In this document: in pieces, positions 616 through 8,095 of the stretch
Position numbering within the stretch: the stretch's first letter is position 1
Layout: each line of letters opens with the position of its first letter
Assembly (NCBI GenBank): GCA_041071465.1
Contig: CP163498.1
Coordinates: forward strand, 682,001-746,000
Source of the DNA: Pseudomonas putida
GTDB lineage: Bacteria; Pseudomonadota; Gammaproteobacteria; Pseudomonadales; Pseudomonadaceae
Direction of reading: 5' to 3'
DNA: 64,000 nucleotides
The notes under the pieces: model-generated
Seen by the model: the letters and a program-made list of their open reading frames with translations, nothing else
What the model was told of the DNA's origin: nothing
Database searches by the model: none
Position numbers and translations under genes: made by a program

Positions 616-727
616 ACCCCGCCCCTCCTTTGCGCTTATCGACTGTAATAACTGCTTTGCCTCGGTGGAGGTGCTTTTCCGGCCAGAGCTTAGGGGACGG
701 CCTGTCGTCGTTTTATCCAATAACGAT
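596..727 (+). pseudogene. rulB: 5' piece of rulB (UmuC-like polymerase), interrupted
   Basis: ATG 596 opens the first 44 residues of a Y-family polymerase: the palm start FALIDCNNCFASVE, with the metal-binding Asp, up to VVLSNND. The next expected residues (GCVIARSYD) are found only at about 8096 onward, after the nested element. The frame runs a few codons into the element and stops by 748. The gene would be translationally coupled to rulA. The 5' piece alone cannot make a polymerase. Confidence 0.9.
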
Positions 728-749
728 CTGAGGGGTGGGAATCGTTAGT
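720..749 (+). repeat. Left junction: 7-bp core repeat plus recombinase arm
   Basis: ATAACGA occupies 720-726, TCTGA 727-731 and GTTAGT 744-749, with 12 bases between the two arm motifs. The same arrangement occurs inverted at the right junction. The core lies within rulB coding sequence (codons for N-D). This is what a tyrosine recombinase site, core plus binding arm, would look like. Confidence 0.75.
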
Positions 750-846
750 AAATCCTGTAGAGTCCGCGCCACCTTCTGAACCCCTCTGGAACAGCAGTTT
801 CCAGGCTTCATAAGGCAATCCATTGGAAGTGTTTTAGGGCAGCGGC

Positions 847-2004
847 ATGAGGCTGGTATTCGCAACAAAAGACCTAGCATTAGCAGGTCGATCCTTTGAA
901 GGCTTTCCGTTGCTGATTGGGTCAGAGGGATGGCCAGTCGAGCCAGCTCAATCCTTCCTTTGGCACACGCTTATCGAGTCAGGTGAGGCCCTAAGCGATT
1001 TGACTTGGGAAGCCTATGGACGGCGTCTGTATGATTACTTTGCCTTCCTGGAAGCCAATGGATTGGGCTGGGACGAGGAAAGCCCGGCTCACGGTCTGAG
1101 TGCTCTGTCGAGGTACAGGGATTGGTCGAGCGGAGAATTAGCACTTGATCCCGGCACGGTGAACAATCGTCTGGCCTTGATCGTGAGGTTCTACCGATGG
1201 GCTAAGCAGCGCAACCTGATAACTGTGCTGCCCTTCGGTGAGAAAAGGGTAAGAGTTGCCCAACATTCCGGTCTTCTCAGTCATATCGCTCTGCCCGGAG
1301 CCGAGAGCACGAAAGTTTCGGTGATGGTTCGCGACCGAAAGCGCTTGACCAAATTCCTGACCAAGGATCAAGTCAAGGTATGCCTTGCCCTGGATACCGA
1401 TCCAAGCCACCAGATATTGTTCCACCTCATGGTGCGTACCGGCCTTCGCTCCTGTGAAGCGAGGTCTTTTCCTCTCAAATATGTGTTCAACCCCAGGTTG
1501 AAGAAGGGACTGCGCCCAAGGCAAATGATCAGTGTTGCTCTTGATCCTTCAGACATGCATATCAAGTACGACCGGCCTAGAACTATCGACGTGCCATGGT
1601 CGTTGATGGAGAGCATGTGGTCTTACTCCCTTCACCAACGAGAGGTTCGTAAGTCCAATGGTGATGGACGTGTTACCGCGCTGCTGCTGACTAATGAAGG
1701 CAGGCATTATTCAAAAGATTCCGTAGTGGACGTTATGAAGTCCTATGAAAGAAAGTGCGGTTTCTATGTTCGGGCCCACATGCTACGCCACACCTATGGG
1801 ACTTATACCTTGCTTGCTCTTCGAAAAAGCAAAGAGTTTGAAGGTGAGCCATTGTTGTATGTCCGAGATAGGCTGGGGCATTCAGATGTGCAAACAACTA
1901 TGATCTATTTGCATCTCATAAACCAGCTTGAAGCCCAATCCGTCCTTGCTCACGAGGACGAAATTGACATGATGTTTATGACTGATTCGGTTTCGCGTAT
2001 TTGA
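847..2004 (+). CDS. Tyrosine recombinase 1 (TnpA-like of Tn554-type element)
   Basis: This 385-residue protein has the full tyrosine recombinase catalytic set: R201 (TGLRSCEA), H311 and R314 (HMLRHTY), H345 (LGHSDVQ) and nucleophile Y354. The N-terminal 170 residues fit a core-binding SAM-like domain. It should catalyse integration and excision together with the next gene, which starts 10 bp downstream. Length and position match TnpA of Tn554-type elements and the XerC-like recombinases of rulB-targeting integron-like elements. The gene starts about 120 bp inside the left junction. It appears intact. Confidence 0.88.
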   Translation: MRLVFATKDLALAGRSFEGFPLLIGSEGWPVEPAQSFLWHTLIESGEALSDLTWEAYGRRLYDYFAFLEANGLGWDEESPAHGLSALSRYRDWSSGELALDPGTVNNRLALIVRFYRWAKQRNLITVLPFGEKRVRVAQHSGLLSHIALPGAESTKVSVMVRDRKRLTKFLTKDQVKVCLALDTDPSHQILFHLMVRTGLRSCEARSFPLKYVFNPRLKKGLRPRQMISVALDPSDMHIKYDRPRTIDVPWSLMESMWSYSLHQREVRKSNGDGRVTALLLTNEGRHYSKDSVVDVMKSYERKCGFYVRAHMLRHTYGTYTLLALRKSKEFEGEPLLYVRDRLGHSDVQTTMIYLHLINQLEAQSVLAHEDEIDMMFMTDSVSRI

Positions 2005-2014
2005 GGTAGCACCA

Positions 2015-6140: not shown

Positions 6141-6154
6141 CGTTGTTCTCCTTC

Positions 6155-7642
6155 TCAGTGGCCCATGAGTTGATCAATGGCGTCGGGTTTATCGTGAACT
6201 CCGAATCGATCCACGATAGTGGCGCTCGCTTCGTTGAGACCTAACACTTCAACTTCGGTGCCTTCGCGGCGGAACTTGATAACCACCTTGTCCAGGGCAG
6301 CAACTGCGGTGATATCCCAGAAGTGGGCGCGATTCAGGTCGATGGTTACCTTGTTCAGGGCTTCTTTGAAGTCGAAGGCCGCGACGAACTTGTCTGCCGA
6401 GCTGAAGAACACCTGGCCAGTGACGTTATAGCTACGATGCTCGCCGGATTCGTCCAGCGAAGAACTGATCGCCATGTAATGGCCAACCTTGTTGGCGAAG
6501 AACATCGCGGCCAGCAGCACGCCGGCCAACACGCCGAAGGCAAGGTTGTGGGTGGCCACCACGACCACAACGGTGACGACCATGACAATGTTGGTCGACA
6601 ACGGGTGCTTCTTCAGGTTGCGCAGCGAATCCCAACTGAAGGTGCCGATGGACACCATGATCATCACTGCCACCAGCGCAGCCATCGGGATCTGCTTCAG
6701 CCAGTCGCCGAGGAACACCACCATCAGCAGCAGGAATACACCTGCGGCCAGGGAGGACAGACGAGAACGACCGCCGGATTTCACGTTGATGATCGACTGA
6801 CCAATCATCGCGCAGCCGGCCATACCGCCGATCAGACCCGAAGCAATGTTGGCCACGCCCTGGCCCTTGCACTCGCGGTTCTTGTCGCTGGGGGTGTCGG
6901 TCAGGTCGTCGACAATAGTCGCGGTCATCATCGACTCCAGCAGACCGACCACGGCCAGCGCTGCCGAGTAAGGGAAGATGATGGCCAACGTCTCGAACGT
7001 CAGCGGCACGTCAGGCCAGAGAAAGATTGGCAGCGTATCCGGCAGTTCCCCCATATCACCGACCGTGCGGATATCCAGCCCAACCGACATGGCGACTGCG
7101 GTCAGCACGATGATGCACACCAGTGGCGATGGGATGAGCTTGCCGATCCTGGGGATATAGGGAAATAGGTAGATGATGCCGAGGCCTGCGGCTGTCATGG
7201 CGTAGACGTGCCAGGTGACATTGGTCAGCTCGGGCAGCTGAGCCATGAAAATCAGGATCGCCAGTGCATTGACGAAGCCGGTCACCACCGAGCGCGAAAC
7301 GAAGCGCATCAGCGAGCCGAGCTTCAGGTAGCCAGCACCAATTTGCAACACGCCACACAGCAGCGTGGCGGCCAGCAGATATTCAAGACCATGGTTCTTG
7401 ACCAGGGTCACCATCAGCAGTGCCATGGCCCCTGTCGCGGCTGAAATCATGCCTGGGCGGCCACCGACAAAGGCGATCACCACGGCGATACAGAATGAGG
7501 CGTAGAGACCAACTTTGGGGTCGACGCCCGCAATGATAGAGAAAGCGATGGCTTCAGGGATCAGCGCAAGTGCGACGACGATCCCCGCGAGCACGTCGCC
7601 ACGGACGTTGGAAAACCACGTTTGTTTGAGTGTTTGTAGCAT
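6155..7642 (-). CDS. SulP-family anion transporter with STAS domain
   Basis: This protein of about 495 residues is an inner membrane SulP/SLC26 transporter. It has the family's entry segment (GIVVALALIPEAIAFSIIAGVDPKVGLY, split by helices), about ten or more hydrophobic segments, and a C-terminal STAS domain (residues about 390-495: VTIDLNRAHFWDITAVAALDKV). Bacterial SulP proteins move sulfate, bicarbonate or dicarboxylates; the substrate here is not determinable. I prefer start ATG 7642 (MLQTLKQTW) over the 9-codon longer form because GGA lies about 7 bp upstream. It leads the three-gene operon with the Usp and DksA-like genes. Confidence 0.88.
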   Translation of the reverse strand: MLQTLKQTWFSNVRGDVLAGIVVALALIPEAIAFSIIAGVDPKVGLYASFCIAVVIAFVGGRPGMISAATGAMALLMVTLVKNHGLEYLLAATLLCGVLQIGAGYLKLGSLMRFVSRSVVTGFVNALAILIFMAQLPELTNVTWHVYAMTAAGLGIIYLFPYIPRIGKLIPSPLVCIIVLTAVAMSVGLDIRTVGDMGELPDTLPIFLWPDVPLTFETLAIIFPYSAALAVVGLLESMMTATIVDDLTDTPSDKNRECKGQGVANIASGLIGGMAGCAMIGQSIINVKSGGRSRLSSLAAGVFLLLMVVFLGDWLKQIPMAALVAVMIMVSIGTFSWDSLRNLKKHPLSTNIVMVVTVVVVVATHNLAFGVLAGVLLAAMFFANKVGHYMAISSSLDESGEHRSYNVTGQVFFSSADKFVAAFDFKEALNKVTIDLNRAHFWDITAVAALDKVVIKFRREGTEVEVLGLNEASATIVDRFGVHDKPDAIDQLMGH

Positions 7643-8088
7643 CAGAATATCCAAAGCAATGCACCGCACGCATGCCAGGAAAATGGCGAGCGCGTCGATA
7701 CGAATTCAAATTGTGAGGATTATTTTGCTGTGCGCTTTGGGTGTAAGAACCGGGCATACAGCAGTACGCAGCCGCCAGCGAAACTGGCGGAGGCGAGGTT
7801 GTTGCGAGGGGGCGTAGCGCTAAGGCGGCGTAGGCTGCCAGTAGAGCGTTTGGAGTACAGTCATGCTGGTGTTCCTGTAGCTCAAGGGGTATGCGGAGCC
7901 AAAAGTATACAGTGAAGCTATCGTCGATTGCGATCCGCCGCCCTGCTTTGCGAAGCCACGTCTGAAATAGGCTTAGTCGAGGAGTATCGCCATCAGGAAC
8001 GAAGGAAAATAATCAAAAAAATGTTAGGGAGTTAATTTGCTTATAAATCAATATCTTACACTCAACTAACTGTTAGGGTCATTCAGAT
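7643..8088. other. Gene-free right end of the nested element
   Basis: These 446 bp lie between the sulP start and the right junction. I see no convincing gene. A hairpin, CCGCCAG-CGAAA-CTGGCGG, is at 7772-7790 without a following T-run. The last 100 bp are AT-rich and contain the right recombinase arm. The promoter of the sulP-uspA-traR operon must lie here on the minus strand, but I could not pick a convincing -35/-10 pair. Confidence 0.6.
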
Positions 8089-8095
8089 ATAACGA
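8070..8095 (-). repeat. Right junction: inverted arm plus 7-bp core repeat
   Basis: On the minus strand GTTAGT is at 8070-8065 and TCTGA at 8087-8083, with 12 bases between. ATAACGA follows on the plus strand at 8089-8095 and continues as rulB sequence (GGC TGT GTA ATC). Compared with the left junction there is one additional base (8088) between arm and core. Confidence 0.72.

Follow-up and report, generated by a model that had tools for sequence, protein, structure and literature searches.

The integron-like element in rulB and its ends

The stretch of DNA analysed here, referred to as the window, comprises 64,000 bp of a Pseudomonas genome assembled in one contig (G000:C1:682001-746000). 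Close to its left end, an element carrying recombinase and cargo genes separates the two parts of rulB, rulB' and rulB'' (Table 1). This element is one of the integron-like elements (ILEs) reported in rulB by Rhodes et al. (2014, PMC4542609), and the original prediction, which was made from the sequence of the window, had already stated that such elements were known in this gene. In the account of Rhodes et al., ILEFH1, ILEFH4, ILEFH5 and the ILE of pGRT1 are inserted at a GAT of rulB. As far as that description goes, the window element shares with them the insertion point, a XerD-like gene (the first open reading frame, ORF1) starting 119 nt from the GAT (GAT at 725-727, ATG at 847; 118-119 nt in rulB ILEs), the sequence CTGAGGG inside the junction, and a SulP, universal stress protein (USP) and DksA cargo as in pGRT1. 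The same account gives a 3-bp repeat (GAT) only, with neither end repeats nor an att site found, and describes the ILEs as having no attI; one insertion point was given without end sequences to explain it, and the arms and 6-bp core described below provide a concrete site. Compared with that account, what is added here is the inverted arms, the core and a rule by which the core keeps a memory of the donor, while the window copy differs from the ILEs described there in that ORF4 and most of ORF3 are missing and the flanks are chimeric.

A motif scan of the window found ATAACGA at both junctions of the element (720-726 and 8089-8095) and TCTGA-N12-GTTAGT just inside them, in opposite orientation, at 727-749 (+) and 8065-8087 (-) with zero mismatches. 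All of this had been correctly located beforehand, and the comparison of junctions with relatives agrees on where the element ends. The heptamer alone is unremarkable, as it has four matches in the window and at least four were reached in 28 of 100 shuffles. The paired inverted arms agree at 15 of 24 positions, in a register that was picked after inspection, and this level was attained by 3 of 100,000 single-base shuffles and by 40 of 200,000 random pairs of 24-mers from the window. With a core of six bases, ATAACG, both element ends open with ATCTGA, and the seventh base is part of an arm or of a flank. Because ATCTGA is read outward from the core at both ends, 6 bp gives the symmetric parse; of the proposed arms around a 7-bp core, the arms are therefore retained and six bases fit better than seven. 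Imperfect inverted repeats adjoining a 6-bp core are also the end structure of strand-biased circularizing elements (SEs), and are present in the window element.

A palindrome, CTAACTGTTAG, was seen at 8066-8076, at the right end only, with no left-end counterpart. Of the 31 right ends identified in the loci below, 24 have it without a mismatch, a count made with a search pattern that favours the palindrome, and it might mark an asymmetry serving strand choice.

Recurrence of the arms in related elements

Relatives were collected by similarity to ORF1 or to the whole region, and not by the end motif, which gave 47 ILE loci including the window. Plasmid records matching ORF1 numbered 368, of which 15 (L004-L011, L108-L114) are in this set. 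Excluded from it were L001-L003 and L012-L019, which repeat other loci or hold other recombinases, L020-L040, whose ORF1 matches are weaker, partial or broken, and the fragment L071. The left arm was present in all 47 loci; 46 were recognised by a pattern that tolerates one substitution, and L064, so near a contig end that its core is incomplete, was read by eye. L047 and L048 have ATCTGC at the left end. The right arm was found in 31 of the 47. The other 16 show no forward-strand 3' half of rulB after the left end in the available stretch, so that their right end was probably not reached. The 30 elements in which both ends could be compared do not amount to 30 independent events, since L006, L007, L011, L058, L109, L113 and L114 share one plasmid-family rulB.

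Close relatives, with 81-86% identity in ORF1 and similar left arms, were also observed in Klebsiella, Citrobacter, Providencia, Pantoea and Silvania (L110, L111, L112, L063, L067). umuD is annotated just upstream in L110-L112, and L111 and L112 are the only ones of these five loci with a resolved right end.

A short reversed fragment of the rulB C-terminus lies inside or beyond the element in L047, L048, L054, L055, L061 and L070, and a rulB-like ORF16 in reversed orientation, similar to such fragments, is described for ILEFH4 (Rhodes 2014, PMC4542609). At the megaplasmid rulB site (L114:6599-25112; L011:16120-37368), the ILE has further recombinase operons to its left and right, which gives the impression of a hotspot where several elements of this kind pile up.

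Cores of inserted elements and of intact sites

While the arms recur in other insertions, the core is not a conserved sequence. The cores at the left (attL) and right (attR) ends are equal in 17 of the 30 elements, the window among them, and unequal in 13 (L004, L005, L007, L041, L042, L044, L051, L052, L056, L057, L066, L114 and L116). Intact sites also vary: 41 of them, which are the best matches to flank queries rather than a random sample and include some near-duplicates, show six core types (ACAACG 28, ACTCGG 5, ATAACG 3, ACAATG 3, ATTCGG 1, ATAGCG 1).

The original prediction took ATAACGA as a fixed core, in the manner of a classical phage-type tyrosine integrase acting on a core common to attP and attB. 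Identical end cores in the window and 16 further elements would be accounted for in this way, but the 13 unequal pairs, the six types of intact site (ATAACG in only 3 of 41) and the sorting of native and foreign cores to fixed sides in the five close comparisons below would not. A fixed core is thus very improbable and is largely refuted by unequal cores standing beside near-identical intact alleles (L004, L007 and L114); the 7-bp version was rejected on the variation of the core. Intact alleles without ATAACGA, which had been named in advance as evidence against the idea, sink the fixed core, and the recombinase reading survives in altered form.

The equal heptamers at the ends of the window element would also be produced by a DDE transposase making a 7-bp target-site duplication. 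However, the sole DDE gene found belongs to an internal IS5, which other copies, L006 for example, do not have; most of the insertions read use one point in rulB, and 13 of 30 elements have unequal repeats. This explanation has hardly any probability and was dismissed on the unequal repeats.

Probable side-specific exchange of the core

The origin of each core was read from close intact alleles, defined by both flanks being at least 90% identical over 60-120 bp (40 bp for L056). The native core was the one at attL in all five such comparisons and the one at attR in none (0/5), which is the arrangement of SEs, with the native core at attL and the donor core at attR. The ILE of pGRT1 (L004) has ACTCGG at attL and ACAACG at attR, and the intact plasmid allele L075, with flanks of 99% and 100% identity, has ACTCGG. 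In a Pseudomonas megaplasmid family, L007 and L114 have ACAACG at attL, with ACAATG (L007) or ACTCGG (L114) at attR; the intact L156 and L157 have ACAACG, and agree with L007 and L114 over the whole left flank (60/60 bases) and at all or all but one of the 120 bases on the right (119-120). L052 keeps the native ACAACG at attL (flanks 94% and 92%) next to ATTCAG at attR. L056 is inserted in a gene other than rulB, where the intact L175 has the attL core, ATGTTG (38/40 and 36/40 flank positions), and attR reads ACTCGG; homologues of this gene have ATGTTG in 9 of 11 cases, ATATTG in 2 and the attR core ACTCGG in none (0/11).

A further case is found in P. bharatica CSV86, in which two ILE copies, L065 and L066, are 99.92% identical over 7.5 kb. 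L065 is in rulB, with ACAACG at both ends, and L066 is in another gene, with TTGACG at attL and ACAACG at attR, the latter being the attL core of its sister L065. The intact homologues of the gene that holds L066 have TTGACG in 6 of 12 and ACAACG in 0 of 12. The element had been predicted to be a rulB-targeting recombinase element; a tyrosine recombinase and insertion in rulB are borne out, whereas confinement to rulB is not (L056 and L066). These two are the ILEs outside rulB with resolved right ends, and both have a rulB-type core at attR. L069 appears to be outside rulB by its left flank only, and its right end was not found.

The published data can be read in the same way. From arm to arm the element measures 9397 bp in L005, L008 and L045, which together with 6 bp gives the ILE length of 9403 reported by Rhodes et al. 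(PMC4542609). The native site of pWW0 (L072) reads A-ATTCGG-AT, and its GAT (6488-6490) coincides with the insertion point described there. A foreign attR core fits this insertion, since duplication of the native ATTCGG would have given an 8-bp repeat, yet a 3-bp GAT is given in that description.

Two other routes to unequal cores were weighed. If both strands took part in excision and integration, as has been proposed for the GInt elements, repair or replication would have to resolve a heteroduplex core, and either core could come to lie on either side. Both core versions are reported in GInt circles and scars (PMC5385486), and of our 13 unequal elements three match neither core and two, of low flank identity, match attR, which would suit such a route. 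However, the native core is at attL in all five cases with flanks of at least 90% identity, and both copies outside rulB with resolved ends also keep it there, which makes a two-strand route rather unlikely. Alternatively, ILE copies could undergo homologous recombination or gene conversion with one another, and unequal cores could be a by-product of this rather than of transposition. Such recombination is likely in the window, where the flanks come from different rulB genes, and likewise in genome G045 (see below). In L004, L007, L114, L052 and L056, however, the flanks match one intact allele and only the 6 bp at attR are foreign; as recombination in the element would have imported the right flank too, this explanation is quite improbable.

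Several observations nevertheless weigh against the transfer of a donor core to attR. When all 13 unequal elements are taken, whatever their flank identity, the core of the nearest intact site matches attL in 8, attR in 2 (L057 and L116, with flanks of only 56-78%) and neither in 3 (L005, L042 and L044). ACAACG is the commonest core (28 of the 41 intact sites), and several of the matches are weak for this reason. L007 and L114 occupy one shared plasmid-family site, and L177, which ties with L175 as the nearest relative of L056, has ATATTG, found at neither end of L056. A circular joint or tandem array was found neither in viral_contigs (0) nor among 185 loci (0/185).

Taking both sides together, we consider it highly probable that the ILE transposes like an SE or Tn554. 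The arms and the position of the core are seen directly in the junctions, and the arms at each end (ATCTGA-N12-GTTAGT, slightly varied in relatives), on either side of a 6-bp core, would be recognised and bound by the recombinases of the element. A circular copy would carry off the 6 bp outside its left arm. At integration, these 6 bp would become the new attR core, and the 6 bp of the target would stay in place as the attL core. The exchange of a native core at attL for a foreign core at attR is supported by the alignments of inserted and intact sites, and the strand chemistry and copying-out behind it are what we infer. The core is a 6-bp memory and not a fixed site; every insertion would record its previous residence at attR, as a return address legible from the sequence. 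If this is true, jumps could be traced from single genomes, such as the one out of rulB into another gene in P. bharatica, or the one from plasmid to chromosome in the window.

Relation to known mobile elements

SEs (SE-6283 and SE-6945; PMC9345347, PMC10214605) have much in common with the ILEs as they are described in these papers: a left-end operon coding for a full, a degenerate and a second full recombinase followed by a small protein, imperfect inverted end repeats, the transfer of 6 bp from the attL of the donor to the attR of the new insertion, and the joining of plasmid and chromosome via two copies. Their targets differ, being bcp, insJ and yjjNt in SEs and rulB in ILEs. The SE gene order of intA, tfp (without catalytic motif), intB and a small srap was found in the intact L007 and not in the truncated window copy. 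In L007, ORF1 has HMLRHT, ORF2 is without HxxR, ORF3 has HQCRRT and ORF4 is 138 aa long; the ORF1 and ORF2 motifs were scanned on these homologues and not on the window proteins. Homologous four-gene operons occur on a Vibrio plasmid (35, 31, 27 and 42% identity, gene by gene) and beside the ILE in L114 (36, 32, 28 and 52%, the first gene being shortened). Two ORF2 relatives searched on pBT2436 matched only the ILE's own ORF2. The ILE of this plasmid had been suspected to be SE-PaeBT2436, an idea given up because its protein accessions differ from those of the paper.

GInts (ginABCD) likewise have three recombinases and a small protein, insert site-specifically and are proposed to have a 6-nt staggered core, according to the description in PMC5385486. 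Their catalytically incomplete protein is the third (ginC), whereas in ILEs it is the second: by motif scan, ORF2 is without HxxR and ORF3 has it, GInts being known to us by description. As GInt targets, that description gives ssb and genes for an ABC transporter and a ribonucleotide reductase. Tn554 is reported in PMC10214605 to copy 6 bp of its left flank, as ILEs would, but is described there as having three genes and no counterpart of ORF2, whereas the intact ILE relatives have four. Matches to ORF1 also occur in plasmid records of Enterococcus (40) and Staphylococcus (17).

A link between ILEs and SEs or Tn554 was found nowhere in the literature searched, which covered titles and the openings of abstracts and did not extend to subscription papers. 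The terms rulB, umuC and integron-like are absent from the main text of PMC10214605, as far as it was available, and the GInt paper (PMC5385486) has rulB once only, in the title of a reference. We think it probable that the rulB ILEs are a widespread family of SE/Tn554 type, present in Pseudomonas, Enterobacterales and others, in which the 6 bp at the right end record the previous host gene. A known Pseudomonas carrier of stress, transport and mercury-resistance cargo would thereby be tied to a transposition rule shown for SEs and reported for Tn554.

Chimeric rulB flanks of the window element

The two halves of rulB at the window element come from different genes, plasmid-type on the left and chromosomal on the right, as judged from their alignments. 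A megaplasmid of Stutzerimonas zhaodongensis (L118) matches positions 1-725 at 99.6% identity; its rulB is intact and has the core ATAACG. The right flank matches the 3' half of the L118 gene only patchily (66-74%), and 8095-9258 is 96% identical to the chromosomal-type rulB of L080, whose core is ACAACG, and matches the start of G045:C47 at 100%. The attR core of the window is therefore the native core of the left-flank gene, and not of the nearest intact relative of the right flank. In G045, one contig end has the same left junction of plasmid-type rulB', ATAACG and ILE, and C47 has the same right junction; we infer that the two belong to one locus.

A history in two steps could explain this arrangement. 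An ILE residing in a plasmid-type rulB (ATAACG) may have jumped into a chromosomal rulB, leaving ATAACG at attR, and recombination between two ILE copies may then have joined the plasmid rulB' to the chromosomal rulB''. For plasmids with SEs, a two-step joining of plasmid and chromosome via two copies is supported in PMC9345347. If so, recombination between copies of the element that carries the 6-bp memory also brings together rulB halves of plasmid and chromosomal origin. Two points speak against this history: no reciprocal junction was seen in the window genome, where there is a single ILE copy and the chromosomal rulA is cut 15.4 kb upstream, and the right-flank gene may itself have carried ATAACG, as 3 of the 41 intact sites do.

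Removal of the element and one repeat had been predicted to restore the rulB reading frame. The codons across the joint do read SNND-GC, but excision would not restore the former gene, because the halves come from different genes; in addition, the 3' part has a frameshift, with a stop at 8307-8309. The window is a warning that a gene apparently restored by removing an insert can mislead when its flanks stem from two genes.

Genes and damage of the window copy

The features of the element and its flanks are listed in Table 1.

Table 1. Features of the rulB element and its flanks in the window
Feature	Position	Strand	Basis
rulA, umuD-like, S24 peptidase, plasmid-type copy	172..615	+	Peptidase_S24 on longer ORF 127-615; annotated in L118
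rulB', 5' part of plasmid-type rulB	596..719	+	Reading frame; intact homologue L118
attL 6-bp core ATAACG	720..725	+	Junction alignment; native core of left-flank rulB in L118
Left arm (C) ATCTGAGGGGTGGGAATCGTTAGT	726..749	+	Pattern and junction comparison
ORF1, 385-aa tyrosine recombinase (IntA/XerD-like)	847..2004	+	Phage_integrase 6.5e-10; HMLRHT + Y motifs
ORF2, 535-aa degenerate recombinase-like protein, position of SE tfp	2015..3622	+	No HxxR (L007 homologue)
ORF3 remnant, about 27 codons of second full recombinase	3619..3698	+	Comparison with L007/L006
IS5-family insertion (transposase 3784-4767)	3699..4884	+	Stands where L006 has 3222 bp
Cargo: DksA/TraR zinc-finger protein	4930..5283	-	Domain search
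Cargo: universal stress protein	5289..6140	-	Domain search
Cargo: SulP-family transporter	6155..7669	-	Domain search
Right arm (C') ATCTGAATGACCCTAACAGTTAGT, inverted orientation	8065..8088	-	Pattern and junction comparison
attR 6-bp core ATAACG	8089..8094	+	Differs from ACAACG of right flank's nearest intact allele
rulB'', 3' part of chromosomal-type rulB	8095..9258	+	96% to L080, 100% to G045:C47; frameshifted

ORF2 had no Pfam or NCBIfam match at 1e-3, and weakly matches Phage_int_SAM_5 (E 0.033). In the uninterrupted plasmid relatives L005, L006, L007, L009 and L011, the left end holds four genes, for proteins of about 385, 535, 580-614 and 138 aa, while L004 and L010 have their own IS5 within these genes, that of L004 (pGRT1 of P. 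putida DOT-T1E) being annotated in ORF3. The copy on pTTS12 of P. putida S12 is an uninterrupted one, with ACAACG at attL and ACAATG at attR. In the window, an IS5 has taken the place of 3222 bp that are present in L006, with the loss of an SdiA-like gene, the whole of ORF4 (the fourth gene) and the greater part of ORF3 (the third recombinase gene). A stretch of the same length as the IS5 of the window (3699-4884) is present in G045. Three recombinases together with a tetR-like gene, as in rulB ILEs, are found in L006 and L007 and not in the window copy, which is a degenerate member of the group, damaged and with mismatched flanks. All four GInt genes are reported as required (PMC5385486), and in SEs intA, tfp, intB and srap are termed essential, with a tfp knockout described as not obtainable (PMC10214605). 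As IS5 took most of ORF3 and all of ORF4, the window copy is probably immobile.

On the chromosome, rulA is cut 15.4 kb upstream, where it ends at 667,317. Between it and the plasmid-type segment lie 14.5 kb of other DNA (G000:C1:667318-681836, corresponding to L122:5318-19836), with genes for cupin, TetR, SDR and OsmC proteins, a Tn3 resolvase and transposase, a 2-hydroxyacid dehydrogenase and phosphonate-transport-like functions. A plasmid of Pseudomonas sp. BYT-5 (NZ_CP097491.1:86593-86918) has 326 bp identical to positions 130-455 of the window, located away from its main rulAB.

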